Part shown: piece by piece, positions 7,370 to 34,664 of the stretch
Layout: every line of letters starts with the position of its first letter
Position numbering within the stretch: the first letter of the stretch is position 1
DNA from: a virus
Virus record (IMG/VR): IMGVR_UViG_3300009790_000028
Location: 1-39,094 of that record
Reading direction: 5' to 3' (one strand)
Length of the DNA: 39,094 bases
Made by a program: the position numbers and the translations under genes
Notes under the pieces: model-generated
Told to the model about the DNA's origin: nothing
The model's input: only the letters and a program-made list of their open reading frames with translations
Databases searched by the model: none

Positions 7370-8185
7370 ATGACTCAATTAATAAACCCCACGAAGTTTA
7401 CAGATACAGTTGGCCTTTTAAGGTCATTTTTTTTGAGCAAAGGATTCTTAGAAGTCCATACTCAGAATAGACTATCAATACTCGCCGCTTGTGAAGATCC
7501 ATTCAATGTAGCGACTTACAATTACGAAGGGCAAGTTTGGCCCTTACCACAAACGGGCCAGATGTGGCTCGAACACGAACTATTAAGTAGCCCCTCTAGT
7601 AAGGGGTTTTTTTGTGTCTCCACTTCCTATAGGCAAGAACCAAATGCTATCCCAGGTAGACATGATACAATATTTCCAATGTTTGAATTTGAAATGCCAG
7701 GAACATTAGATGATCTAAAAGCAATGGAAGTAGAATTATGTAAGCATTTAGGATTTGATGACTTAACAGAAAAGACATATAAAGAATGGCAAGAACACTT
7801 TGGTGTTGATGGAGAGCTAGAAGCAAGACATGAAGAAACTATGTTTGAAAAGTATGGTAGTTGTATGATTACTAACTTTCCAGAGTTTACAAGTCCATTC
7901 TGGAATATGAAACGTTATGAAGATGGCGTTACAAGTAAGAAAATAGATGTAATACTAGGTGGAATGGAAACAATAGGTTCAGCAGAACGTTCAACTGATG
8001 TAGAACAGATGAGAGATACGTTTCATACAATTACTGATGGTGCTTATAGTAAGTTGCTATTCGAATTGTTTGGTAAAGAAAGAGTAGAGGCAGAGCTAGA
8101 GAAGTTCTTAGAGTTTGATTTCTTTCCACGTGTAGGTGGGGGAATTGGAATGACTAGAATGATTAGTGCCTTGGACACCCTATGA
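7370..8185 (+). CDS. Stand-alone class II aminoacyl-tRNA synthetase core, AsnRS-like (or AsnA-like)
   Basis: A 271-residue protein with the complete class II catalytic core. Motif 1-like FLSKGFLEVHTQ is at residues 21-32. LPQTGQMWLEHEL (59-71) corresponds to the AsnRS/AspRS amino-acid site. Motif 2 YRQEPNAIPGRHD (87-99) carries Arg88 and Glu90 and is followed by FPMFEFE. Motif 3 is GGGIGMTR (256-263) with Arg263. SPFWNMKRYEDG and GMETIGSAERS resemble AsnRS. Full AsnRS is about 430-470 residues; the N-terminal OB-fold anticodon-binding domain is absent. It may charge tRNA with Asn, or make asparagine like AsnA. AAAGGAAAAAAG precedes the ATG. A chimeric GUU tRNA follows 62 bases downstream, and a terminator-like hairpin lies inside the gene. 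Confidence 0.82.
   Translation: MTQLINPTKFTDTVGLLRSFFLSKGFLEVHTQNRLSILAACEDPFNVATYNYEGQVWPLPQTGQMWLEHELLSSPSSKGFFCVSTSYRQEPNAIPGRHDTIFPMFEFEMPGTLDDLKAMEVELCKHLGFDDLTEKTYKEWQEHFGVDGELEARHEETMFEKYGSCMITNFPEFTSPFWNMKRYEDGVTSKKIDVILGGMETIGSAERSTDVEQMRDTFHTITDGAYSKLLFELFGKERVEAELEKFLEFDFFPRVGGGIGMTRMISALDTL
7527..7560 (+). promoter_or_regulatory. Two mutually exclusive hairpins inside the synthetase gene
   Basis: AAGGGC (7527-7532) pairs with GCCCTT (7540-7545), or TGGCCC (7538-7543) pairs with GGGCCA (7555-7560). They share bases 7540-7543, so only one can form. They lie just upstream of a terminator-like hairpin, an arrangement like an attenuator switch. They are also coding sequence, so the pairing might be fortuitous. 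Confidence 0.4.
7591..7613 (+). terminator. Terminator-like hairpin inside the synthetase coding region
   Basis: CCCCT (7591-7595) and AGGGG (7602-7606) pair around CTAGTA and are followed directly by seven T. This is an intrinsic-terminator shape about 220 bases into the ORF. The codons are CCC and GGG, both rare in this AT-rich genome. It may attenuate transcription of the synthetase and of the tRNA downstream. Confidence 0.5.
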
Positions 8186-8244
8186 GTAAAGAAGAATATA
8201 AAAAGTACGTTGAGCTATTAAAAAGGATAGCAAACGTAAAATAA
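8182..8244 (+). CDS. 20-residue ORF coupled to the synthetase gene
   Basis: Encodes MSKEEYKKYVELLKRIANVK, a short basic amphipathic helix. Its ATG overlaps the synthetase stop (ATGA) and it ends 3 bases before the tRNA. It could be a real microprotein, a helper that binds the tRNA or synthetase, or merely a translated spacer. No known family. Confidence 0.4.
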   Translation: MSKEEYKKYVELLKRIANVK

Positions 8245-8247
8245 TAA

Positions 8248-8334
8248 TCTAGGGTGGTGGAATTGGTAGACACGATAGACTGTTTATCTATTACTCAAAC
8301 GAGTGTGGAGGTTCGAGTCCTCCCCCTAGAGCCA
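8248..8334 (+). tRNA. Chimeric tRNA: leucine-type body with Asn anticodon GUU and encoded CCA
   Basis: The cloverleaf is clear. Acceptor TCTAGGG (8248-8254) pairs with CCCTAGA (8324-8330). D-arm GTGGAATTGGTAGACAC is nearly identical to bacterial tRNA-Leu. Anticodon stem ATAGA/TCTAT (8275-8279, 8287-8291) closes loop CTGTTTA, anticodon GTT at 8282-8284. The long variable arm (8292-8306) has stem ACTC/GAGT, and the T-arm is GGAGG-TTCGAGT-CCTCC. Discriminator is G73 (8331), as in tRNA-Asn, not A73 as in tRNA-Leu, and CCA is encoded. Position 37 is U, where a purine is normal. The anticodon and G73 are AsnRS identity elements; the body is class II. It sits in the synthetase transcript and must be excised from it. 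Confidence 0.88.
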
Positions 8335-11995: not shown

Positions 11996-12376
11996 TTATT
12001 CTGGAAGATCGGGTGTAAGTAGCTTCAAAGTGATGTGTTTTTCTACTTCTTGCTCGTATTTTTCAGCCAACTTTTTAATATGAGGATATTCTTTTTCTAT
12101 TTCCTTGTTTCTTTTAAGATCTTCTGGAATACCTAATGCTTTTTCAATTTTAGATAATCTTGACCCAATATGTTCAACTTTTTCTAAAACTTCTGTGTTT
12201 GCTGTACTTTCCATTGTGTCTGAATCGTAGCTAAATGAAACGTCAAGTCCTGACGAGTTTGTCACAGTAGTATAACTTGGACTCAAGGTGTACTCTGATT
12301 TATCATCCCAAGAATCTAATGTTGTTTTAACGTCTTCTAGGTCTAGCTCTAACTGATATTGATCTTCGGGATTCAT
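11996..12376 (-). CDS. Unknown acidic protein with a C-terminal coiled coil
   Basis: A 126-residue protein. The N-terminal half is Ser/Thr/Asp-rich (SPSYTTVTNSSGLDVSFSYD) and the C-terminal half is charged and helical (VEHIGSRLSKIEKALGI, then KRNKEIEKEYPHIKKLAEKY). It overlaps the lectin-fold gene's stop by 4 bases and is last in a late-type unit with the radical SAM gene. It may be a structural accessory protein. Confidence 0.55.
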   Translation of the reverse strand: MNPEDQYQLELDLEDVKTTLDSWDDKSEYTLSPSYTTVTNSSGLDVSFSYDSDTMESTANTEVLEKVEHIGSRLSKIEKALGIPEDLKRNKEIEKEYPHIKKLAEKYEQEVEKHITLKLLTPDLPE

Positions 12377-13095
12377 GTTATAGGTTCTCCTTTTTTTATA
12401 TAAGATTCTGTTACATAGCTTTCAATTCCATTTTTATCTACGTACGGATAAAGAGGTAGAGGCACTTCCGCCACCTCTTCTTTATTAACAGGTTGATATT
12501 CAACTTTTACATTATGAAATATATGTGTAATGTCACATTTAGATTCTAGAGTATAAACTCCAAATTTGAAATAAGGTGGTGATGTTATTAGTTTTCTAGT
12601 AGATGCTAGGTATTTGTTGTCAATGTAAAAATCAACATTAATAAAGTCTTTACGATATTTTATCTCTACTCTAAGATTAAATAAGTTTGTTGCTTTAACA
12701 TCTGGTATGTCTCTTGGTTCAATACGAAACTCTTTATGCTCATTAATAACTAGCTTGATATAATTCTCAGGTTCTTCATAGCCATCTTCCCAATGTAATT
12801 GCCACATACAATTACTATTTCCTTCTATTTGATCAGCTTCTATACGAATGTCGCCGGACCAGATATAATCTCCTTCAACAATAGAAGATGACGTGGCTTC
12901 ACATCTTTCTTTAAAATTATACAATAAGTTACCTTCTGGATCATATGCTGGAAGATCGTCACCAGGGCTTTTTCCAGGAACACCTTTTTTAATTTTAAAA
13001 ACAAATTTATTATTTGTATTGTCGTGTTCGTCTCGAGTGTATAGATATTCGCTGTCACAACTGGGCCTCCAAAACTTATCGTTGGATAATATCAT
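12373..13095 (-). CDS. Concanavalin-like (polysaccharide-lyase type) beta-sandwich protein
   Basis: A 240-residue protein. The pattern KERCEATSSSIVEGDYIWSG, then NCMWQLHWEDGYEEPEN, LRVEIKYRKDFINVDFYIDN and YFKFGVYTLESK matches the jelly-roll arrangement of heparin-lyase-like or glucanase-like domains (Gln/His/Trp strand, then a short ligand-side strand and a final lysine/tyrosine strand). It could bind or cut surface glycan, perhaps as a tail-associated protein. It overlaps the radical SAM gene by 4 bases. Catalytic residues cannot be confirmed. Confidence 0.5.
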   Translation of the reverse strand: MILSNDKFWRPSCDSEYLYTRDEHDNTNNKFVFKIKKGVPGKSPGDDLPAYDPEGNLLYNFKERCEATSSSIVEGDYIWSGDIRIEADQIEGNSNCMWQLHWEDGYEEPENYIKLVINEHKEFRIEPRDIPDVKATNLFNLRVEIKYRKDFINVDFYIDNKYLASTRKLITSPPYFKFGVYTLESKCDITHIFHNVKVEYQPVNKEEVAEVPLPLYPYVDKNGIESYVTESYIKKGEPIT

Positions 13096-14390
13096 GTTGT
13101 AAGACCGCCATCTAATGAAATTCTATCTTCTTTTTTGTTTCTAAGTTCTTGTACAATACTTCCACAGTTGTCTACACAAATTTCCATTCTAGGTTTAACA
13201 GGATCATCAGTACGATTGTTCCAACTGTCTTGTAAGTCTGTTTGAAAAAACTTATGTCCTAGTACATCTTCTAATGTGTGATGACTAGTATAGTTCCACT
13301 TGTCATCATATTTAGAAACATAGTTGTTGTGGTATGTATTGTTAGGTGTACCATCTGGGTTAGCTACATCTTTACGCCATGCTCTAGCAAAGTATGATGT
13401 AAAATGACAACAAACGTGTACACGACCATCCCATTCAATTTGTAACTTACCTTCGTTACCCCATGAGCACCAAATGTTACAGTTGTTGGCATAGTCTTCC
13501 ATACTGTTATCAAACTTTTCTACAACAAGTTTTTTAGCTTTCGCCTCCATAGACTTGTAATGATCTTCAGGTGGCTTATGTGATTTGTTTTCAAACTTTT
13601 TCTTTTTAACTTTACTAAAGCCTTCATGATCAAAGTCTGTTTCTTTTTCTTTTACACTTACTACACCTGTTTCAATTGCTTTTTCTCTCAATTGATTACT
13701 AATTCTTTCAGCCCATCTACTACGTCTTACATCAATTCTAACAAAGCCTAATTCTTTTGCTAATCTTTTTGCTTCTTCTATTTGATGTTTGTTATGATCA
13801 AACTCAATAATTTGCCATATAGCTTTACCACCAGCCTCCATAAAGTAACGAGCATTTTCTAATACTTTTTCATATGAACAGCCTCTACGATATAGTTGAT
13901 GTGTTTTATCATCAGTACCATCTAAAGCAAATATTAATTCTGAGTTGTTAGGGTTATATCTTTGACTTGCTAAATGTCCTAGGTCAGTCCAAAATTCTTT
14001 GTTTCTCATAGCACCGTTAGTACTAACCCATAAGTCAGTTCTACTGTTACGACCATTCTTTAATCTCTGTGACTTTACACTATCACTTACGTCAGCAATA
14101 TAATGAAGTATCTCAATCATATCTGGGTGATTAATAGCGTCACCAAATGAACCATTTAAGTCTAATGTTTTAAGTCCACCCATTACTGTAGGAGTAAAGA
14201 TATTCTTAATAGTACTCATAGGCATATTACCAGCACTACCTACTTTAATAGCTGGGTTAGGGTCGCCTTCTTTTAAATCTAAATGTGGTATGTCGCCTGA
14301 AACTCTTCTAAGACATTGTGGACAGAAACTATTACAGTTTGCTGTAATTTCTATTGTAATTCTTCGGAGTAATTTAGGGTCTAAGAACAT
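13092..14390 (-). CDS. Radical SAM protein with SPASM-like C-terminal cysteines
   Basis: A 432-residue radical SAM enzyme. Cys19-X3-Cys23-X2-Cys26 in EITANCNSFCPQCLRR binds the 4Fe-4S cluster for SAM cleavage. DGTDDKTHQLYRRG and the basic VRRSRWAERI are shared with a paralog at 26370-27614. A C-terminal cysteine set (CNIWCSWGNEGKL, RVHVCCHFTSY, ICVDNCGS) suggests an auxiliary cluster as in SPASM proteins that modify peptides. A late-type promoter precedes it, and a lectin-fold gene follows with overlap. The substrate, perhaps a virion protein, is unknown. Confidence 0.85.
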   Translation of the reverse strand: MFLDPKLLRRITIEITANCNSFCPQCLRRVSGDIPHLDLKEGDPNPAIKVGSAGNMPMSTIKNIFTPTVMGGLKTLDLNGSFGDAINHPDMIEILHYIADVSDSVKSQRLKNGRNSRTDLWVSTNGAMRNKEFWTDLGHLASQRYNPNNSELIFALDGTDDKTHQLYRRGCSYEKVLENARYFMEAGGKAIWQIIEFDHNKHQIEEAKRLAKELGFVRIDVRRSRWAERISNQLREKAIETGVVSVKEKETDFDHEGFSKVKKKKFENKSHKPPEDHYKSMEAKAKKLVVEKFDNSMEDYANNCNIWCSWGNEGKLQIEWDGRVHVCCHFTSYFARAWRKDVANPDGTPNNTYHNNYVSKYDDKWNYTSHHTLEDVLGHKFFQTDLQDSWNNRTDDPVKPRMEICVDNCGSIVQELRNKKEDRISLDGGLTT

Positions 14391-14407: not shown

Positions 14408-14415
14408 GTATTTAT
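14408..14415 (-). promoter_or_regulatory. Late-type promoter (AATAAATAC) for the radical SAM unit
   Basis: AATAAATAC lies between the clamp-loader stop and the radical SAM ATG. If the start is five bases after the hexamer, the leader is only about 12 bases. There is no strong Shine-Dalgarno sequence, which fits short-leader late transcripts. Confidence 0.5.
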
Positions 14416-15335
14416 TAGGCCAGTTCAGCAAGTTCTACCAATGTTGCTGATAGGTTAATCTCTGGATCACTTACCATAGCATGATTAACTAATCCTTTTC
14501 TAATTGTTAAAATTGCTTTGTCTTGTCCTTCTACAGAGTCACTCCACAATTCTAAGTTATCATACATCCAACGAAACACATCTTCCATTTCATCTGGACG
14601 TACTTGACTACACAATAGTTGTCTAGCTTCTCTAATTTTACCAGCTTTAATCATGTCAACCATTTGTAGTTTATAATCTGCTGTAGCATTATCACTTTCT
14701 TGAGGATTTTGTAATACATTATCAACTGTATTCATTTGACATAAGTTTAAACATTTTCTCAAGTCTGGATACGTTGCTTTTACATAACTGTCTAAAACAT
14801 CTAAGTCAGGTGTTATACCTTCGTCTAACATTACCTTAGCTATTCTAGTTGTAAATTCTGTTACGTCTAGTTTCTCAATATGGAAACCTTGACATCTACT
14901 ATGTAATGCTGGAATAACTCTATTAGGATAGTTACAAGTTAAAATAAATCTTGCTGTGTTGGCATACATTTCCATAACACCACGTAATGCCGCCTGTCCG
15001 TTTGGACTAATATAATCTGCTTCGTCTAGTAGTACAACCTTAAAGTCACCAAATGGCATTGTTTGTACAAAGCCTGTAATCTTATCTCTAATTGTATCTA
15101 CAGAGTTTTCTCTACTAGCATTAATTTCTAGTATGTCATACTCGTCTACTTCTAATATGTTTAATAAAACTTTTGCTAGTGTTGTTTTGCCTACGCCTGG
15201 AGCACCACTAAACAATAAGTGTGGAATACTTTTCTCACTAACCCATCCTTGAACTTGATTCTTTTGTGCTTCATCTCTAAACACATAGTCTTCGATTGTT
15301 TTAGGTCTATACTTTTCAGTCCAAAGTTGTTTCAT
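14415..15335 (-). CDS. 44: Clamp loader ATPase (T4 gp44-like)
   Basis: A 306-residue AAA+ ATPase of the clamp-loader small subunit family, which loads the sliding clamp at replication forks. It starts MKQLWTEKYRPKTIEDYVF, as RFC/gp44 proteins do, with Walker A GAPGVGKT (44-51), Walker B VVLLDEADYI (100-109) and the SRC arginine-finger motif HSRCQGF (145-151). Length is like T4 gp44. The ATG follows GGAG at a good distance. The small subunit gp62 is not seen adjacent. A 51-codon ORF overlaps its start. Confidence 0.95.
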   Translation of the reverse strand: MKQLWTEKYRPKTIEDYVFRDEAQKNQVQGWVSEKSIPHLLFSGAPGVGKTTLAKVLLNILEVDEYDILEINASRENSVDTIRDKITGFVQTMPFGDFKVVLLDEADYISPNGQAALRGVMEMYANTARFILTCNYPNRVIPALHSRCQGFHIEKLDVTEFTTRIAKVMLDEGITPDLDVLDSYVKATYPDLRKCLNLCQMNTVDNVLQNPQESDNATADYKLQMVDMIKAGKIREARQLLCSQVRPDEMEDVFRWMYDNLELWSDSVEGQDKAILTIRKGLVNHAMVSDPEINLSATLVELAELA

Positions 15336-24407: not shown

Positions 24408-25076
24408 TTAATGTAAGTCAACCCAAGCACCATTGGCTCTGCCTTTGAATTTATGAGCTGTACTATCATAATAGATCATACCATTAGTTGGTGTACCTGG
24501 AGCTGTACCCGGATTGTGTAGTGTGTAACCAGCACTTACTGAAGCACTTGCTGTTACTGTGCCACCAAATATTGTTAGCCATTGTTTCGTAGCACTACCT
24601 AAACTCTTTTGAGCATCATCAGTAGGTCTAAGATCACTTGCTATTGCTACGTGGCCTGTTCCAGCTGGATCAAGTGTAATACTTTCATTAGTTGTAGTAG
24701 ATGAAATTGTACTAGCATGGATTGACAAATCTTCAACTGTAAGTGTTCCTGATGTAGAATTCCATGTCATTCTAGAATCGTTGCTTACATCACCTGCTGA
24801 ATCTGAGAATAGGATGGCATTGTCTGTATGATCAGCTATGTTAAGTTTAGCACCAGTATTAACTACGACTTTACCAGTTCCATTTGGATCTAAAGTAATG
24901 TTACCGTTAGTGTCTACTGAAGTTATGCTGTTTCCAGTAAGGTCTAAGTTTGTACCTGCCGCCCCAGCACTATATAATTCATTAAAATTATCGTTAATTT
25001 TATCAAAGGCTGTTCTTAACGGATCACCTGTACCGTCATTTGCTGAACTACCTAAATTTACAGTTTGTTTTGCCAT
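24408..25076 (-). CDS. Tail-fibre-like protein, shorter paralog
   Basis: A 222-residue protein that starts MAKQTVNLGSSANDGTGDPL and shares with the 407-residue protein the LDPNGTGKVVV, SLGSATKQWLTIFG and PGTPTNGMIYYDSTAHKFKG blocks. This looks like a duplicated fibre module, with no long repeats. A late promoter lies 20+ bases before the ATG (25101-25108). It ends just ahead of the paralog. Confidence 0.78.
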   Translation of the reverse strand: MAKQTVNLGSSANDGTGDPLRTAFDKINDNFNELYSAGAAGTNLDLTGNSITSVDTNGNITLDPNGTGKVVVNTGAKLNIADHTDNAILFSDSAGDVSNDSRMTWNSTSGTLTVEDLSIHASTISSTTTNESITLDPAGTGHVAIASDLRPTDDAQKSLGSATKQWLTIFGGTVTASASVSAGYTLHNPGTAPGTPTNGMIYYDSTAHKFKGRANGAWVDLH

Positions 25077-25122: not shown

Positions 25123-25455
25123 TTAAACGGCGAATGATTCGCCACAACCACAAGACGCTTTTGCCTGTGGATTCTTTACAGCTAGGTATGATCCGCCTAG
25201 TTCTGTAATATAGTCAATAGTACTACCTAAAACATACATTTCGGCTATACGAGCAATTAATAACTTGTTCTGTGAGCTCTCGCTTAAAGGTACTTCAATC
25301 CAGTCCTCATTAGCGTCTTTTTCGTTAGCAAATTTCCATTCATATGTAAAACCACTACAACCTCCACCTTTTACTGTAAAAGTGGCGTATCTACTGTTGT
25401 TATCACCAGTAGCTTTTAATAGATAATCTTTTGCTTTGTCTGTTACTTGTATCAT
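25123..25455 (-). CDS. A-type Fe-S carrier (IscA/SufA/HesB-like)
   Basis: A 110-residue protein of the HesB/IscA fold. The three cluster cysteines are Cys33 in GGGCSGFTYEW and the pair Cys102/Cys104 in SCGCGESF at the C-terminus. Such proteins carry 2Fe-2S or 4Fe-4S clusters to apo-enzymes. It overlaps the DUF59 gene by 4 bases and lies in a unit with a ferredoxin and a radical SAM enzyme, which need clusters. Confidence 0.92.
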   Translation of the reverse strand: MIQVTDKAKDYLLKATGDNNSRYATFTVKGGGCSGFTYEWKFANEKDANEDWIEVPLSESSQNKLLIARIAEMYVLGSTIDYITELGGSYLAVKNPQAKASCGCGESFAV

Positions 25456-25883
25456 TTAAAATTCCAACTGTCGAAGCTAGGTTCAGGCGTTTCATATCCC
25501 ATTCCTAACTCTAATTGTGCCAATTCGCTGGCGTGTTCGGGTCCGAAAGTAGGTTGAAATGTCATCTCTACCTTAACTGTATTTATTGTTGTTACCTTCT
25601 CCACTGCTTCTTTTACCCATTGTGGCATCTCTCCTGCTACTGGACAAAATGGGCTAGTTAGCGTCATTATTATATCACAGTTGTTATCATTATCAATATC
25701 CATTTTATATATAAGACCTAAGTCATGAACATTAATATGAATTTCAGGATCAAATACTTTCCTTAAATTAGCTTTAACGTGTTCTGCTTGTTCTACATTT
25801 CCGTTTGTAGTAATCCAATCAAATGTACCATCTTCACTTCGATAACGATTATGGAAGTCTGGTTTTCTATCTGTATTAGTCAA
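25452..25883 (-). CDS. DUF59/MIP18-like Fe-S assembly factor
   Basis: A 143-residue protein. DPEIHINVHDLGLIYKMDID and MTLTSPFCPVAGEMPQWVKE, with Cys80, match the DUF59 (PaaD/SufT/MIP18) family involved in Fe-S protein maturation. It ends ELAQLELGMGYETPEPSFDSW. It lies between the IscA-like and ferredoxin genes with 4- and 8-base overlaps, so a coupled Fe-S function is likely. Confidence 0.88.
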   Translation of the reverse strand: MTNTDRKPDFHNRYRSEDGTFDWITTNGNVEQAEHVKANLRKVFDPEIHINVHDLGLIYKMDIDNDNNCDIIMTLTSPFCPVAGEMPQWVKEAVEKVTTINTVKVEMTFQPTFGPEHASELAQLELGMGYETPEPSFDSWNFK

Positions 25884-26196
25884 TGTGATTCACTTTCACG
25901 ACTAGTGTTTTATCTGGTACATCTCTAAGGTCAATTTGACAGCCTAGTCGACTACTGCCTTCTTTATATCCTGAAGCGAATTCTACTAGATACAATTCAT
26001 TTTCATCAGGACCTCCTGGTGGCATACCTTCTAATACTTCAACGTGGCAAGTGGCACATACACAAGAACCTCCACAAGTACCCCAAGGGTCTTTGCTAAA
26101 GTAATCGTATAGTGCCACCATAACGTTGTCGTTCGAGCCATACTTAACATCAAGCTCTCTGCCTGATCTAGTAATACACTTGAACGTCTTATCCAT
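25876..26196 (-). CDS. 2Fe-2S ferredoxin (adrenodoxin-like)
   Basis: A 106-residue protein with Cys41-X5-Cys47-X2-Cys50 (CGGSCVCATCH) and Cys86 (RLGCQI), the cluster ligands of vertebrate-type/adrenodoxin-like ferredoxins, plus an extra Cys45. It probably donates electrons to the radical SAM enzyme or to Fe-S assembly. It begins 2 bases after the upstream microprotein stop. The N-terminus is basic. Confidence 0.92.
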   Translation of the reverse strand: MDKTFKCITRSGRELDVKYGSNDNVMVALYDYFSKDPWGTCGGSCVCATCHVEVLEGMPPGGPDENELYLVEFASGYKEGSSRLGCQIDLRDVPDKTLVVKVNHID

Positions 26197-26198
26197 TA

Positions 26199-26351
26199 TT
26201 AACCTTTTGTAGCTACTTGATAAGCGCCAAAGATAATTGCCGCGTATGCTACCAAATCAACAGGTGCTAATAACATAATTACACCTACAGCGATTAAACC
26301 TAGTCCACCGTGTGATGCTTTTTCTTTAAGTCTATCTAAAATCCAAGTCAT
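26199..26351 (-). CDS. 50-residue membrane microprotein
   Basis: Encodes MTWILDRLKEKASHGGLGLI and AVGVIMLLAPVDLVAYAAII, one or two hydrophobic helices, with AAGGAGGTC ahead. HGGLGLIAVGVIM resembles part of the 77-residue protein at 4025-4258. It is located inside the Fe-S and radical SAM unit. Function unknown. Confidence 0.65.
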   Translation of the reverse strand: MTWILDRLKEKASHGGLGLIAVGVIMLLAPVDLVAYAAIIFGAYQVATKG

Positions 26352-26369
26352 ATCTGACCTCCTTTTATA

Positions 26370-27614
26370 TTAAAGTTTTTCAACATCATAGCTTGAGATG
26401 TTGTTGTGACCTTCGCCACAATGTTCAACACAAACACTTAACTTCGGTAGGGTTAAATCTGTAGTAGAGTTACCCCAACTTTCTTCTAAGTCGTTCCTGT
26501 AAAACTTATGAGATAATATATCCTGTAACGGATTGTAATTTAGATTATTCCAATTACTGTTATAGGAGTCTGTCATCATCTCATATTCTCCACCATCAAA
26601 ACTACTGTCGATATTCTTACTCCAGAAGTTATTCATATAGTGGTTAAGGAAACAACATGGATGGACGAGTCCGTTAAATTCCACGTTAATCTTTCCTTTG
26701 TTACCCCAAATACAAGATATACTTGTATTCTCTTGGTAATCTTTATAATTCTTGTACTTGCTTTGTACTTCTTTTAGTTCTTTTTCTACTTTACTAGAAT
26801 CAGTAATGTATTTAATGTTTCCTGTTTTGGCATCGTCATATTTGACACGTTTATCTACTGATTTGGATTGGTATAGTTCTACAGTTTTTTCTTCTGCTTT
26901 TACATTTTTACCTAAATCTTTTATAGTATCTTGTATACTTAAACGTTCACCTCTACTACCTCGTAACCAAAATTCAGCAAAGCCTAAATCAGTTGCCATT
27001 TGTTTAGCGTCTAGTGTTTGATGTTTGTTATGATCAAACTGTAACCATTGCCATACAGCTCTACCACCAACACTCATATATGCTTTAGCATTTTCCATTA
27101 GCTTTGGCCAACTAACTGCTCTTCGGTACATTTGGTGTGTCTTATCATCTAATCCATCTATAGCAAATATAACTTTAGTCCAAGGTTGATGGAACTGTTT
27201 AGTTAGCTCTGCCATTTGTTTCCACCAATCAGGATTATGTAAACCTCCATTGGTAGCAATTTCTAATCCACATCTATCATTGCCAGCTTCTTTTAGTGTG
27301 TCAATTAAATGTTGAGTAAACTTAAAAATATCAGGATGTAATATAGCATCACCCCAAGTACCATTGTAGGTAATCATTTGTAAGTTTTTCATTGTTGTAG
27401 GATTGAATAAGTTTTGCCAAGCCTCCCAAGTAAAATGTCCTTTACTTCCTTGGAATGGTTTTATAGTAGGATTTAAATCACCTACCTTTAATGTTTTATC
27501 TTTGTTATCAGTATCACGTACCCAACGGTCACAAGCAGGACACATAGCATTACAATTGGCTGTTAGCTCTACTTGTATTGTTGTTGTACTTTGTAAACTG
27601 TATAACTTACTCAT
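26370..27614 (-). CDS. Radical SAM protein, paralog of the 13092-14390 enzyme
   Basis: A 414-residue radical SAM enzyme. Cys21-X3-Cys25-X2-Cys28 is in VELTANCNAMCPACDRW. The NGTWGDAILHPD, DGLDDKTHQMYRRAV and FDHNKHQTLD blocks match the paralog closely. The C-terminal Cys set (ISCIWGNKGKI, VHPCCFLNHY, VCVEHCGEG) suggests an auxiliary cluster. It is next to ferredoxin, IscA- and DUF59-like genes, consistent with a private Fe-S supply. The ATG overlaps the lysin stop. Substrate unknown, perhaps a phage or host peptide. Confidence 0.87.
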   Translation of the reverse strand: MSKLYSLQSTTTIQVELTANCNAMCPACDRWVRDTDNKDKTLKVGDLNPTIKPFQGSKGHFTWEAWQNLFNPTTMKNLQMITYNGTWGDAILHPDIFKFTQHLIDTLKEAGNDRCGLEIATNGGLHNPDWWKQMAELTKQFHQPWTKVIFAIDGLDDKTHQMYRRAVSWPKLMENAKAYMSVGGRAVWQWLQFDHNKHQTLDAKQMATDLGFAEFWLRGSRGERLSIQDTIKDLGKNVKAEEKTVELYQSKSVDKRVKYDDAKTGNIKYITDSSKVEKELKEVQSKYKNYKDYQENTSISCIWGNKGKINVEFNGLVHPCCFLNHYMNNFWSKNIDSSFDGGEYEMMTDSYNSNWNNLNYNPLQDILSHKFYRNDLEESWGNSTTDLTLPKLSVCVEHCGEGHNNISSYDVEKL

Positions 27615-28269
27615 TTTCTAATATTTTACGAACCGATTCTACCTTTTGTTTTACTAACGTTGTATAGATAGGATTAGTACTCCATTTATTGAGAAGATCT
27701 ATTTGTTTATCGAGGTCAATTGTGTGATTAGCTAGTTGCTCAGCCCTTTCTATCCTAAAGAGCTCATAAGCATGATGTGTATTAATATTATTTACCATAT
27801 CTTTTACTGAGGAACATTTGGTTTTATATGCTTTTACACCCCACTTAACGTCAGGATTTCCTAATGGTTTTAGTTGTGGTGTACTTGGTTCCCAGGTTCT
27901 AATACCAAACAAGTTGTTACCTTCTTTAGCAAATCTACTCTTACCATAGCCTGTTTCTAATACAGCCATTGCTATAATAATTTCTCTATGTACTCTGTCT
28001 TCGTGTTTAATTGTTAAGTTAATATATTGAATACATTTTCCTACTGCTAATACAAATTCTTTGTTGTTAGAATATTCTATTGCTGGCTCTTCAAATCCAA
28101 AGTCTTTAAATATTTTAATATGATCAGCTTCTAGTTGTTTTATAATCTTATTTTTTACAATGAAGTTAGGATTAAATGTTCCATATGAGTAAGCAATAAT
28201 AACACCTACAATAAATCCTGTTATGGTATAGAGCCATAGCTTGACTCTTTTAGTAAAAAGTTTTTTCAT
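27607..28269 (-). CDS. Bax/FlgJ-like membrane-anchored glucosaminidase
   Basis: A 220-residue protein with one N-terminal membrane span (about residues 11-28) and a Bax-type lytic domain: IIIAMAVLETGYGKSRFAKE has the catalytic Glu105, then GNNLFGIRTW and VNNINTHHAYELFRIERAEQ. It is thus a second peptidoglycan hydrolase in this phage, anchored in the inner membrane with the enzyme outside. It may help entry, release or local wall opening. It overlaps the radical SAM start by 8 bases. Confidence 0.8.
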   Translation of the reverse strand: MKKLFTKRVKLWLYTITGFIVGVIIAYSYGTFNPNFIVKNKIIKQLEADHIKIFKDFGFEEPAIEYSNNKEFVLAVGKCIQYINLTIKHEDRVHREIIIAMAVLETGYGKSRFAKEGNNLFGIRTWEPSTPQLKPLGNPDVKWGVKAYKTKCSSVKDMVNNINTHHAYELFRIERAEQLANHTIDLDKQIDLLNKWSTNPIYTTLVKQKVESVRKILENE

Positions 28270-32854: not shown

Positions 32855-34165
32855 TTAATTCAACCTCAATGCTGAAGCATCAGCAATACCAAAGTGTATC
32901 ATTCTTCTAGATTCAATTGGCATCTTAAGAGCATAGTTTGTATTAAAAACTGTATCATATAAATTCATCCAACCAGTTGTATTATACTCGTTAGGGTTAT
33001 TACTCATAAACCTTAAATTGTTATTCTGTCCACCACCTGATGGCTTCTTATACTTTTTAGAACAGTAAGCAACCAGTTTGTCTATCTTAGGAAAGTCCTT
33101 TTGTATATCATACCCTTGATTGTGTAATAAGATTGCCATAGTTATCATACCTTGTGCTACTTTATTACCTGAGTTGATACCGTAGTTTTGTCCATTACCT
33201 GATTTGTGTTCTCCCTTTAAACTTCCATTGTTTCTCATAGTACTATAAAAGTCTTTGAATCCATTAAAGCCTGCCGTAAAGTAAACCTCATTCTGATCAG
33301 CAATACCCCATAACATATAGGCTACTTTTTTATTAATAGTTTCGTGGTTACCAGGCTCAAAGAAATGTTTCCAACCCCACCTACTAGATAATAATCCATC
33401 CATAGGTCCTTGTTCTAAAGCCCATACTCTTTTCTCTAACCAACTATGTACTAACTCAAATTCTTCTTTAGTGTAAAGGTTGTTTTGTTGTAATACAATG
33501 TGAGCTTCTATCAAAGGTATAATTGTAGGATAAAACCAATTTAAACTATTACCAAACAGTTGATAATCTGTGGCTGTACTTTTATATAAAAACTTATCTG
33601 ATTCTAAGATCCTAATCCAATCACCTTCTGCTCCAGATACCATACCGTCCTTTAATCCTGTTAGGTTACCTGTTTGTAGTAAGTGAGAGATAGGGTGTGA
33701 GTGTCTCCAATCATTTCTCATTCCACCATCTACTGCTTCATTTTCAAACTGTTCATTTTTCCATATCATTTCATCATCGGAACCTGAAGGAGAGGAAATT
33801 ATATTAATGTCATAATATTCCTTCCATACTAAAGTTTTACAAGATATAGAACCTTGGCATTCATCAGAAACATCATATTTAGAATTGTTGTTTATAAGGT
33901 TACCCCAGATGCCTATCATTTCAGTAGGTTTGATTAGTGGTCCTTTGTCGGCTATATTGATAGCTTTATTATTACCATTAAAATTACTTTTACCAATAAA
34001 CAATTTTGGTTCTTTGTGTAATGAAGTTATATCTAAATCACAACCTCCTTCTGTTACACATTTAATAGCAAACTTCTTACCAGTAGGCCAGTCAGCTCTC
34101 GCCATATCAACCCAAGCCAAAGTTAGAAACAATGCTACTATAAACATAATAGTATTTCTACCCAT
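32855..34165 (-). CDS. Secreted polysaccharide (alginate) lyase-like protein
   Basis: A 436-residue protein with a signal peptide (MGRNTIMFIVALFLTLAWVDMARA, likely cut before DWP). RNDWRHSHPISHLLQTGNLT, FFEPGNHETINKKVAYMLWG, FKDFYSTMRNNGSLKGEHKS and QGMITMAILLHNQGYDI follow the helix pattern of alginate-lyase-type (alpha/alpha toroid) enzymes, with the Asn-His and GSL blocks. Substrate not known. I chose the ATG at 34165, which sits after AGGAGG and overlaps the upstream stop. An exported lyase from a phage could clear host or particle polysaccharide on release. Family level only. Confidence 0.5.
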   Translation of the reverse strand: MGRNTIMFIVALFLTLAWVDMARADWPTGKKFAIKCVTEGGCDLDITSLHKEPKLFIGKSNFNGNNKAINIADKGPLIKPTEMIGIWGNLINNNSKYDVSDECQGSISCKTLVWKEYYDINIISSPSGSDDEMIWKNEQFENEAVDGGMRNDWRHSHPISHLLQTGNLTGLKDGMVSGAEGDWIRILESDKFLYKSTATDYQLFGNSLNWFYPTIIPLIEAHIVLQQNNLYTKEEFELVHSWLEKRVWALEQGPMDGLLSSRWGWKHFFEPGNHETINKKVAYMLWGIADQNEVYFTAGFNGFKDFYSTMRNNGSLKGEHKSGNGQNYGINSGNKVAQGMITMAILLHNQGYDIQKDFPKIDKLVAYCSKKYKKPSGGGQNNNLRFMSNNPNEYNTTGWMNLYDTVFNTNYALKMPIESRRMIHFGIADASALRLN

Positions 34166-34664
34166 TTTCCCTCCTGTATAACACCTCATCTAATGATATA
34201 GGTGTGGCGTTTATTTGTTCTACACTAACATTAACATACCTCTTATCAGGTATCTTCCTATCGTGTATATGTCCGTGAATGTTAGCATCAAACCTATTCA
34301 ACTGATCTGGGTGTATAGGAATATGAGTTAACATCATTTTATATAACTCGTGAGCACCTCTAATATCTTTAAAGTACTTCACATAATCTTTAAGGTCAAA
34401 CAAATCGTGATTACCTTTGATAAGAATCTTCTTACCATTTAATTGCTCAAGTAATGCTAACTTCCTTCTAGGAAATGCTACATCACCTAAGTGATAAACT
34501 TTGTCTTGTGGTTTAACAACAGAGTTCCAACGATCAATCATTACTTGGTCACCTTCTTCAGCCGTGTCGGCAAAGTCCCTAACTCTAGAACCATCAAAGT
34601 TCTTAAAAGTATAGACGGCATCGTGTCCAAAGTGTGTATCGCTTATAAAATATCTCTCAGCCAT
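34158..34664 (-). CDS. Calcineurin-like metallophosphoesterase
   Basis: A 168-residue protein. It carries the phosphoesterase motifs in order: SDTHFGHD (8-15), HLGDVAFPRRK, KGNHDLFDL, THIPIHPD and HGHIHD. The size and motif set match the YfcE-like family. Substrate may be a nucleotide or phosphodiester. It overlaps the lyase-like gene and follows the 74-codon gene directly (TAA then ATG). Confidence 0.85.
   Translation of the reverse strand: MAERYFISDTHFGHDAVYTFKNFDGSRVRDFADTAEEGDQVMIDRWNSVVKPQDKVYHLGDVAFPRRKLALLEQLNGKKILIKGNHDLFDLKDYVKYFKDIRGAHELYKMMLTHIPIHPDQLNRFDANIHGHIHDRKIPDKRYVNVSVEQINATPISLDEVLYRRENG

Follow-up and report, generated by a model that had tools for sequence, protein, structure and literature searches.

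A conserved block of Fe-S carrier, DUF59 and ferredoxin genes near radical SAM genes in a lineage of marine T4-like phages

Genes of iron-sulfur (Fe-S) cluster assembly and genes of radical S-adenosylmethionine (SAM) enzymes are already known from marine T4-like phages, since both were reported in 2017 (Nishimura et al., PMC5332604). In the part of that paper available to us, Fe-S assembly genes are described for 16 marine viral genomes (carrier in 14, IscU in six), a T4-like genome of 183 kb, TARA_ERS488813_N000010, is credited with an A-type carrier, paaD and 12 radical SAM genes, and viral proteins are proposed to be among the Fe-S clients. Excerpts of two other papers report radical SAM cassettes in pelagimyophages (PMC7029224) and eight radical SAM genes in one phage, Aeromonas phage 332-Vera, which were called highly unusual (PMC12390700). 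The present study concerns the virus record IMGVR_UViG_3300009790_000028 of IMG/VR, the whole of which (39,094 bases, about 35% guanine plus cytosine) is called the window below. It contains adjoining genes of an A-type Fe-S carrier, a DUF59 protein and a [2Fe-2S] ferredoxin (Fdx), and, close to them, those of a protein of 50 amino acids (aa) and of a radical SAM enzyme, rSAM_B. A second radical SAM gene of the window, rSAM_A, was absent from the list of an earlier note made on this DNA from its letters.

A survey of related contigs supports the conclusion that the Fe-S helper genes are a real conserved block in this phage lineage. In our opinion, it is rather probable that the block works in the late maturation of clusters and in electron supply, serving the radical SAM enzymes of the phage, with rSAM_B as an optional neighbour.

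Like the genomes of PMC5332604, the window lineage combines a carrier, a DUF59-family protein (named PaaD there) and many radical SAM genes in a large marine T4-like phage. Unlike here, the available part of that paper makes no mention of ferredoxin, IscS or a Fdx-DUF59-carrier block, nor of a position between lysis and tail genes or of facultative radical SAM neighbours. Phage 332-Vera resembles the present phages in having several radical SAM genes in a large genome, and the words 'ferredoxin' and 'iron-sulfur' do not occur in its text as far as available. In a literature search confined to titles and the openings of abstracts, with most subscription journals and bioRxiv outside its scope, neither a phage IscS in such a setting nor this operon was found.

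Among cellular systems, the bacterial iron-sulfur cluster (ISC) machinery (IscS, IscU, IscA, Fdx, HscA/HscB) shares with the window the carrier and an adrenodoxin-type ferredoxin of Isc-like cysteine spacing, and with relatives of the window IscS, IscU and a true Isc ferredoxin; the window itself is without IscS and IscU. As for SufT and the SUF-associated DUF59 proteins, the DUF59 protein of the window matches TIGR02945, yet under the cut-off, and no SufB/SufD accompanies it above the cut-off.

Conservation and composition of the block

IMG/VR was searched with rSAM_B, with rSAM_A and rSAM_B together, and with the carrier, ferredoxin and DUF59 proteins, and the window genes were then mapped on the fetched loci and contigs. 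The survey was thus seeded with the radical SAM, Fdx, carrier and DUF59 genes themselves, and all co-occurrence figures are conditional on such seeding. All the IMG/VR records used are fragments of unstated completeness and, for this reason, absences from them weigh little. The block was found on 10 contigs (the window, G001–G006, G008, G009 and G020), which represent eight distinct genomes after the merging of near-duplicates: G003 and the window share 99.9% identity, and G006 and G009 share at least 99.97% in the compared parts.

Fdx and the carrier are encoded on all 10 block-bearing contigs, and so in 8/8 genomes, as neighbours with or without the DUF59 gene between them. The genes of the 50-aa protein and endolysin are also present in all eight genomes, and DUF59 in six (it was not found in G002 and G006/G009). 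Radical SAM genes at the block are more variable. In four genomes (window/G003, G001, G002 and G004), rSAM_B lies between the endolysin and 50-aa genes, and in two others (G008 and G006/G009) a twitch-type enzyme, rSAM_C, is encoded between the carrier and the gp9/10-like gene; rSAM_C of G008 scores 175.5 bits with NF033640 (cut-off 170). Every block-bearing contig has from one to nine radical SAM genes. From the order of genes in the eight genomes, the ancestral unit can be read as a pair of lysis genes with Fdx-(DUF59)-carrier behind it, and rSAM_B seems to have been inserted into this pair, between the endolysin and 50-aa genes.

In the window, the minus-strand order of transcription is endolysin, rSAM_B, 50-aa protein, Fdx, DUF59, carrier and gp9/10-like gene (Table 1). 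The five open reading frames (ORFs) that the earlier note had listed are indeed present on this strand, and the identities given there (IscA-like carrier, DUF59, ferredoxin, radical SAM) are borne out by Pfam scores above the curated cut-offs. The tight overlaps that it described hold for the carrier and DUF59 genes (4 bp) and for DUF59 and Fdx (8 bp); rSAM_B overlaps only the upstream endolysin gene (8 bp), is separated from the 50-aa gene by a gap of 18 bp and has no overlap with the Fe-S genes. Its four-gene unit is not supported, as rSAM_B occurs in half of the genomes, looks inserted, and two of the eight have no radical SAM gene at the block. The idea of one pathway keeps its first part, the conserved helper block together with radical SAM genes on each contig that bears it, and loses rSAM_B as a constant member.

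Table 1. Features of the window considered in the text
Feature	Position	Strand	Basis
rSAM_A, conserved paralogue of rSAM_B	13092..14390	-	38% identity to rSAM_B; clamp loader neighbour
Clamp loader, gp44-like, marks the rSAM_A locus	14415..15335	-	phrog_168 E=7.5e-78
gp9/10-like baseplate / tail-fibre connector	24408..25076	-	PF07880 26.2 bits (cut-off 25); phrog_677 E=2.6e-18
A-type Fe-S carrier, IscA/ErpA-like, 110 aa	25123..25455	-	PF01521 E=3e-10; TIGR00049; C33, C102, C104
DUF59 / SufT-like Fe-S maturation factor, 143 aa, TTG start	25452..25883	-	PF01883; TIGR02945
[2Fe-2S] ferredoxin (Fdx), adrenodoxin/Isc type, 106 aa	25876..26196	-	PF00111; TIGR02007; C41-x5-C47-x2-C50-x35-C86
50-aa hydrophobic protein, probable holin-like lysis protein	26199..26351	-	endolysin neighbours; without family match
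rSAM_B, radical SAM enzyme, twitch-like C-terminal cysteines, 414 aa	26370..27614	-	PF04055; predicted structure; facultative here
Endolysin, N-terminal hydrophobic stretch	27607..28269	-	PF01832 E=1.5e-13; hydropathy

The carrier scores 40.7 bits with PF01521 (cut-off 26.3) and 77.3 bits with TIGR00049 (cut-off 58.8), and stays under the equivalog cut-offs of ErpA (78.8 vs 117), IscA (46.3 vs 150.6) and SufA (57.3 vs 136.2). A-type carriers have three conserved cysteines, a single C and a CGC near the C-terminus. The window carrier possesses this set, and its C33, C102 and C104 are invariant in the three sequences aligned. The DUF59 protein was recognised by PF01883 (FeS_assembly_P; E=1.9e-13, 50.9 bits, cut-off 23.5), and its best NCBI model is TIGR02945 SUF_assoc (E=1.6e-34), with 118.2 bits against a cut-off of 143.4. 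Fdx passes the PF00111 cut-off of 21 bits (E=3.8e-6, 27.2 bits). Cluster ligands of adrenodoxin/Isc-type ferredoxins are arranged as C-x5-C-x2-C-x35/36-C, and C41, C47, C50 and C86 of Fdx fit this spacing. Its sequence relatives in the PDB are adrenodoxin homologues and putidaredoxin. In comparison with the relative G001, purifying selection was found on the carrier (ratio of non-synonymous to synonymous substitution rates, dN/dS, 0.08), Fdx (0.09) and DUF59 (0.25).

The 50-aa protein, a membrane microprotein between the Fe-S genes in the earlier note, is better read as a part of the lysis cassette, probably a holin. It has no match in Pfam or NCBI family models; its homologues align over the full length and are partnered with a glucosaminidase in the window lineage, an M15_4 peptidase in G030 and a GH108 lysin in G031. 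Such a constant partnership with three different endolysin folds would be expected of a holin-like protein; in the block, its gene adjoins that of the endolysin or is separated from it by a single gene. The protein is retained without rSAM_B in G005, G008, G009 and G020 and its gene is under the weakest constraint in the block (dN/dS 0.34 vs G001).

The radical SAM enzymes

rSAM_B slightly exceeds the PF04055 cut-off (E=8.6e-7, 29.7 bits vs 29.5). The cysteines of its CX3CX2C motif, C21, C25 and C28, are invariant in 21/21 homologues, and C301, C320, C321, C395 and C399 in 10/10 close homologues. A SPASM domain has seven cysteines, and a twitch domain binds one cluster. With only five cysteines in the C-terminal part of rSAM_B and a SPASM (PF13186) score of 15.2 bits, under the cut-off of 21.5, the SPASM-like set suggested before gives way to the one-cluster twitch as the better fit to the sequence; the twitch radical SAM model NF033640 gave no rSAM_B match at E<=0.01. 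The enzyme is under the strongest purifying selection within the block (dN/dS 0.05 vs G001).

The predicted structure of rSAM_B (predicted local distance difference test, pLDDT, 86.1; predicted template modelling score, pTM, 0.87) consists of a radical SAM barrel and a C-terminal region. Its top fold matches, with Z from 16.5 to 17.8, are MoaA, SuiB, ChlB, anSME, DesII, SkfB, 5why (which we take to be a CteB-type sactipeptide enzyme) and BlsE, and, because the best of them span just 1.3 Z units, the substrate class is not readable from the fold. PDB searches also gave near-ties, among MoaA, SuiB, ChlB, anSME, DesII, SkfB and BlsE. With the SPASM/twitch enzymes (SuiB, ChlB, anSME, SkfB, BlsE, BtrN and MoaA), rSAM_B shares the CX3CX2C barrel and the presence of cysteines in the C-terminal part (VIA Z 15.0-17.8, root-mean-square deviation 3.2-5.3, 226-272 residues), and it differs from them in an identity of only 10-18% and an incomplete SPASM cysteine set.

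rSAM_A is the more conserved of the two paralogues. Its gene stands beside that of the clamp loader in 7/7 contigs of the lineage on which the clamp loader is seen, the window included, and evolves slowly (dN/dS 0.03-0.07). It is likely the main client of the Fe-S block. The start of a small gene at 11996-12376 overlaps rSAM_A by 4 bp in G002, G005, G008 and G009; its product, presumably a common T4-like accessory protein, was considered as a substrate of rSAM_A and set aside, the evidence being neither for nor against.

Matches of rSAM_A and rSAM_B in INPHARED were limited to Campylobacter phage CP220 and its relative F379, at 24-26% identity. In CP220, the region 65452-83949 (L137) holds a radical SAM cluster together with a possible glycine amidinotransferase and two nucleotide-diphospho-sugar transferases. 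Neighbours of rSAM_A/B homologues in the phage collection and in a prokaryote genome collection point to no substrate. In a first genome scan for cellular homologues, 19 stretches matched and no relatives were among them; a second scan gave nine weak loci of 18-34% identity, from which no function could be read. Two of the nine, L128 and L131, have several phage-type neighbour genes each and lie on contigs labelled as Pacearchaeota and Methylophilaceae metagenome-assembled genomes. Since several of their genes resemble those of the phage contigs studied here, they are probably phage contigs binned into these assemblies.

In G009 (53-66 kb, L061/L062) and G002 (15-26 kb, L064/L065), there are cassettes in which radical SAM genes alternate, by our reading, with those of small proteins with a motif of the 'GAGxxFxG' type; ORFs that we take to be dioxygenase-like and sulfotransferase-like are also present. 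Such cassettes are perhaps a pathway of surface or small-molecule modification. Small ORFs presumed by eye to be acyl-carrier-protein-like were noticed on phage contigs at 521-856 of L064 (G002) and 9681-9917 of L128. A paper of 2026 links acyl carrier protein to the ISC machinery, according to its available part (PMC13343975).

Cluster assembly and other genes in the window and its relatives

The earlier note had called the module self-contained. In the window (G000), a fragment, neither IscS (PF00266) nor IscU (PF01592) was found, nor SufB/SufD (PF01458) at E<=0.001; IscS and IscU occur only in relatives. Having neither desulfurase nor scaffold, the window is unable to build clusters alone. 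In two relatives, PF01458 gave 12 bits (cut-off 27) at the gp10-like gene, and membership in SUF was rejected, no SufB/SufD being above the cut-off.

IscS and IscU of the relatives exceed their equivalog cut-offs. The block-bearing contig G009 has, next to a gene of a DnaJ-type protein, one of IscS (711 bits, cut-off 643.2); two more genes of the carrier family are found on it. This IscS was used to find further contigs, and IscU, sought in seven, was present in four and adjoins IscS in G027, G028 and G031. The largest contigs are G028 (192 kb; IscS, IscU and eight PF04055 matches), G030 (184 kb; IscS, IscU, an Isc ferredoxin of 172 bits against a cut-off of 132.1, and 25 PF04055 matches) and G029 (138 kb; IscS, an Nfu-domain protein, DUF59, a carrier and 21 PF04055 matches). 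These assembly genes are set among phage genes. The clamp loaders of these contigs are 56-57% identical to that of the window, and on this ground the contigs are treated as a sister lineage, a label without a tree behind it. HscA/HscB were not recognised in these searches, the J-protein of G009 being of the DnaJ_C type. Most matches of IscS/IscU in INPHARED lie in records that are unannotated or look bacterial, and the matches were not counted as evidence from phages; an exception is Phage C48C1, in which IscU is situated among phage genes.

Some other genes of the relatives may be mentioned. At 7068-11860 of L059 (G009), ClpA-like, peptide deformylase, IscS and DnaJ-type genes stand in a row, and in G002 and G005, DnaJ-type, deformylase and ClpA genes are side by side without an IscS match. 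Amidinotransferase-like genes of G028 and G030 resemble one in L130.

The window has phage genes of T4-like and other kinds (clamp loader, gp9/10-like connector, DNA ligase, PhoH, MazG and endolysin). An Rfam scan found two tRNAs and nothing more; directly before the tRNA-Asn lies a short gene (7370-8334, plus strand, 271 aa) similar to those of class II aminoacyl-tRNA synthetases (PF00152, E=1.4e-15). The scan for promoter-like sites (31 vs 29.7 expected) and terminators (2 vs 3.7 expected) was uninformative. Two minus-strand genes at 32855-34189 and 12373-13095, without Pfam or NCBIfam match in the scans made, are by eye presumably polysaccharide-lyase-like.

Proposed role and alternatives

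The chemistry of cluster delivery by A-type carriers, DUF59/SufT proteins and adrenodoxin-type ferredoxins is established. The following course of events may be proposed. A lineage of large marine T4-like phages keeps Fdx-(DUF59)-carrier between the lysis genes and the tail-fibre connector. During infection, the carrier and DUF59 protein would take over clusters started by the host IscS/IscU or Suf machinery and, in some relatives, also by the IscS/IscU of the phage, and would pass [4Fe-4S] clusters to the phage radical SAM enzymes, chiefly rSAM_A and here also rSAM_B. Fdx may give electrons either for cluster assembly or for reduction of the SAM-cleaving cluster, and the enzymes may act on a protein, a peptide or a small molecule. 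rSAM_B would be an optional enzyme sitting by its cofactor supply, and the 50-aa protein would belong to lysis.

This service to the phage enzymes is favoured by the strong purifying selection on both rSAM_A and rSAM_B and by the many radical SAM matches (8, 21 and 25) in the three largest contigs of relatives with IscS/IscU. The placement of two different radical SAM genes on opposite sides of the block is suggestive. A binomial test of adjacency gave P=0.001 by contig (4/6 contigs; 27 radical SAM genes in 532 crude genes) and P=0.006-0.025 when only two insertion events were counted; it covered six of the 10 block contigs, leaving out the window, G001 and the near-duplicates G003 and G006.

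Several observations weigh against this reading. The adjacency test was post hoc, designed after the data had been seen, and used crude ORF-based gene counts. In G005 and G020, there is no radical SAM gene at the block. Campylobacter phage CP220, which, like the present phages, has several radical SAM genes in a large genome, differs in having no A-type carrier, PF01521 giving no match in its full record. The best NCBI model of Fdx, fdx_isc (TIGR02007), gave only 30.8 bits against a cut-off of 132.1. Separate occurrence of the genes in most relatives had been named beforehand as the finding that would speak against a module. The answer is divided. Within the lineage, the block is kept in all eight genomes, and outside it, the genes are met apart: nine of 15 Fdx loci are in the block and six on contigs without carrier, DUF59 or radical SAM genes, and six of 16 carrier loci are in the block and 10 lack a Fdx of the window type, on contigs without radical SAM or DUF59 match. 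The contigs with such lone loci are mostly short fragments.

The block could equally serve Fe-S enzymes of the host. According to this explanation, to which we give a smaller though appreciable chance, the carrier, DUF59 and Fdx are auxiliary metabolic genes by which host enzymes are kept loaded in infection (those of respiration, nucleotide synthesis and lipoate formation were considered as clients), and the radical SAM neighbours are incidental. The two genomes with no radical SAM gene at the block, the single phage carriers and ferredoxins on contigs without such genes, and IscU of Phage C48C1, whose radical SAM content was outside the scan, agree with host support. On the other hand, all block-bearing contigs also have radical SAM genes, and two unlike ones flank the block.

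It is unlikely that Fdx is an electron donor of an unrecognised redox enzyme, such as a P450-like protein or oxygenase, with the carrier and DUF59 merely maturing Fdx. The low score of Fdx with the Isc equivalog model would fit this role, as would P450 partners such as putidaredoxin and adrenodoxin among its PDB relatives, but Fdx and carrier are neighbours in all eight genomes, the ferredoxin of G030 in the sister lineage is clearly of the Isc type, and none of the window proteins that were scanned was recognisable as a partner oxygenase. A peptide-modification pair, in which the 50-aa protein would be the substrate of rSAM_B, similar to precursors of ribosomally synthesised and post-translationally modified peptides (RiPPs), is very improbable and only a minor rival: although the 50-aa gene lies directly downstream of rSAM_B and the fold relatives of rSAM_B include the RiPP maturases SuiB, SkfB and ChlB, the protein is kept where rSAM_B is missing and is found next to endolysins of three types, its endolysin neighbour is present in all lineages, and its gene is the least constrained of the block.

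A broader and tentative proposal, which is less likely, may be added: a lineage of large marine phages may possess a near-complete ISC line dedicated to a radical SAM factory with as many as 20-25 enzymes in a genome. Its parts would vary by genome (IscS, IscU, A-type carriers, Isc ferredoxin, DUF59 and/or Nfu), and in the window they would be the carrier, DUF59 and Fdx, forming one block beside which radical SAM genes settle. If true, such a factory would change the chemistry of virion proteins, of polysaccharide on the host surface or of peptides, and would make the phage partly free of the cofactor supply of the host.

Radical SAM enzymes depend on clusters that are sensitive to oxygen and on a donor of electrons, and therefore, in a short infection, cofactors are a bottleneck for a phage that has many such enzymes. 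If phages bring a carrier, a maturation factor and Fdx, and their relatives also a desulfurase and a scaffold, then the supply of cofactors has to be counted among the traits of the virus, and it becomes directly testable why certain phages have over 20 radical SAM genes. The assembly-starting enzymes found in related phages suggest that cofactors are partly supplied by these viruses themselves.

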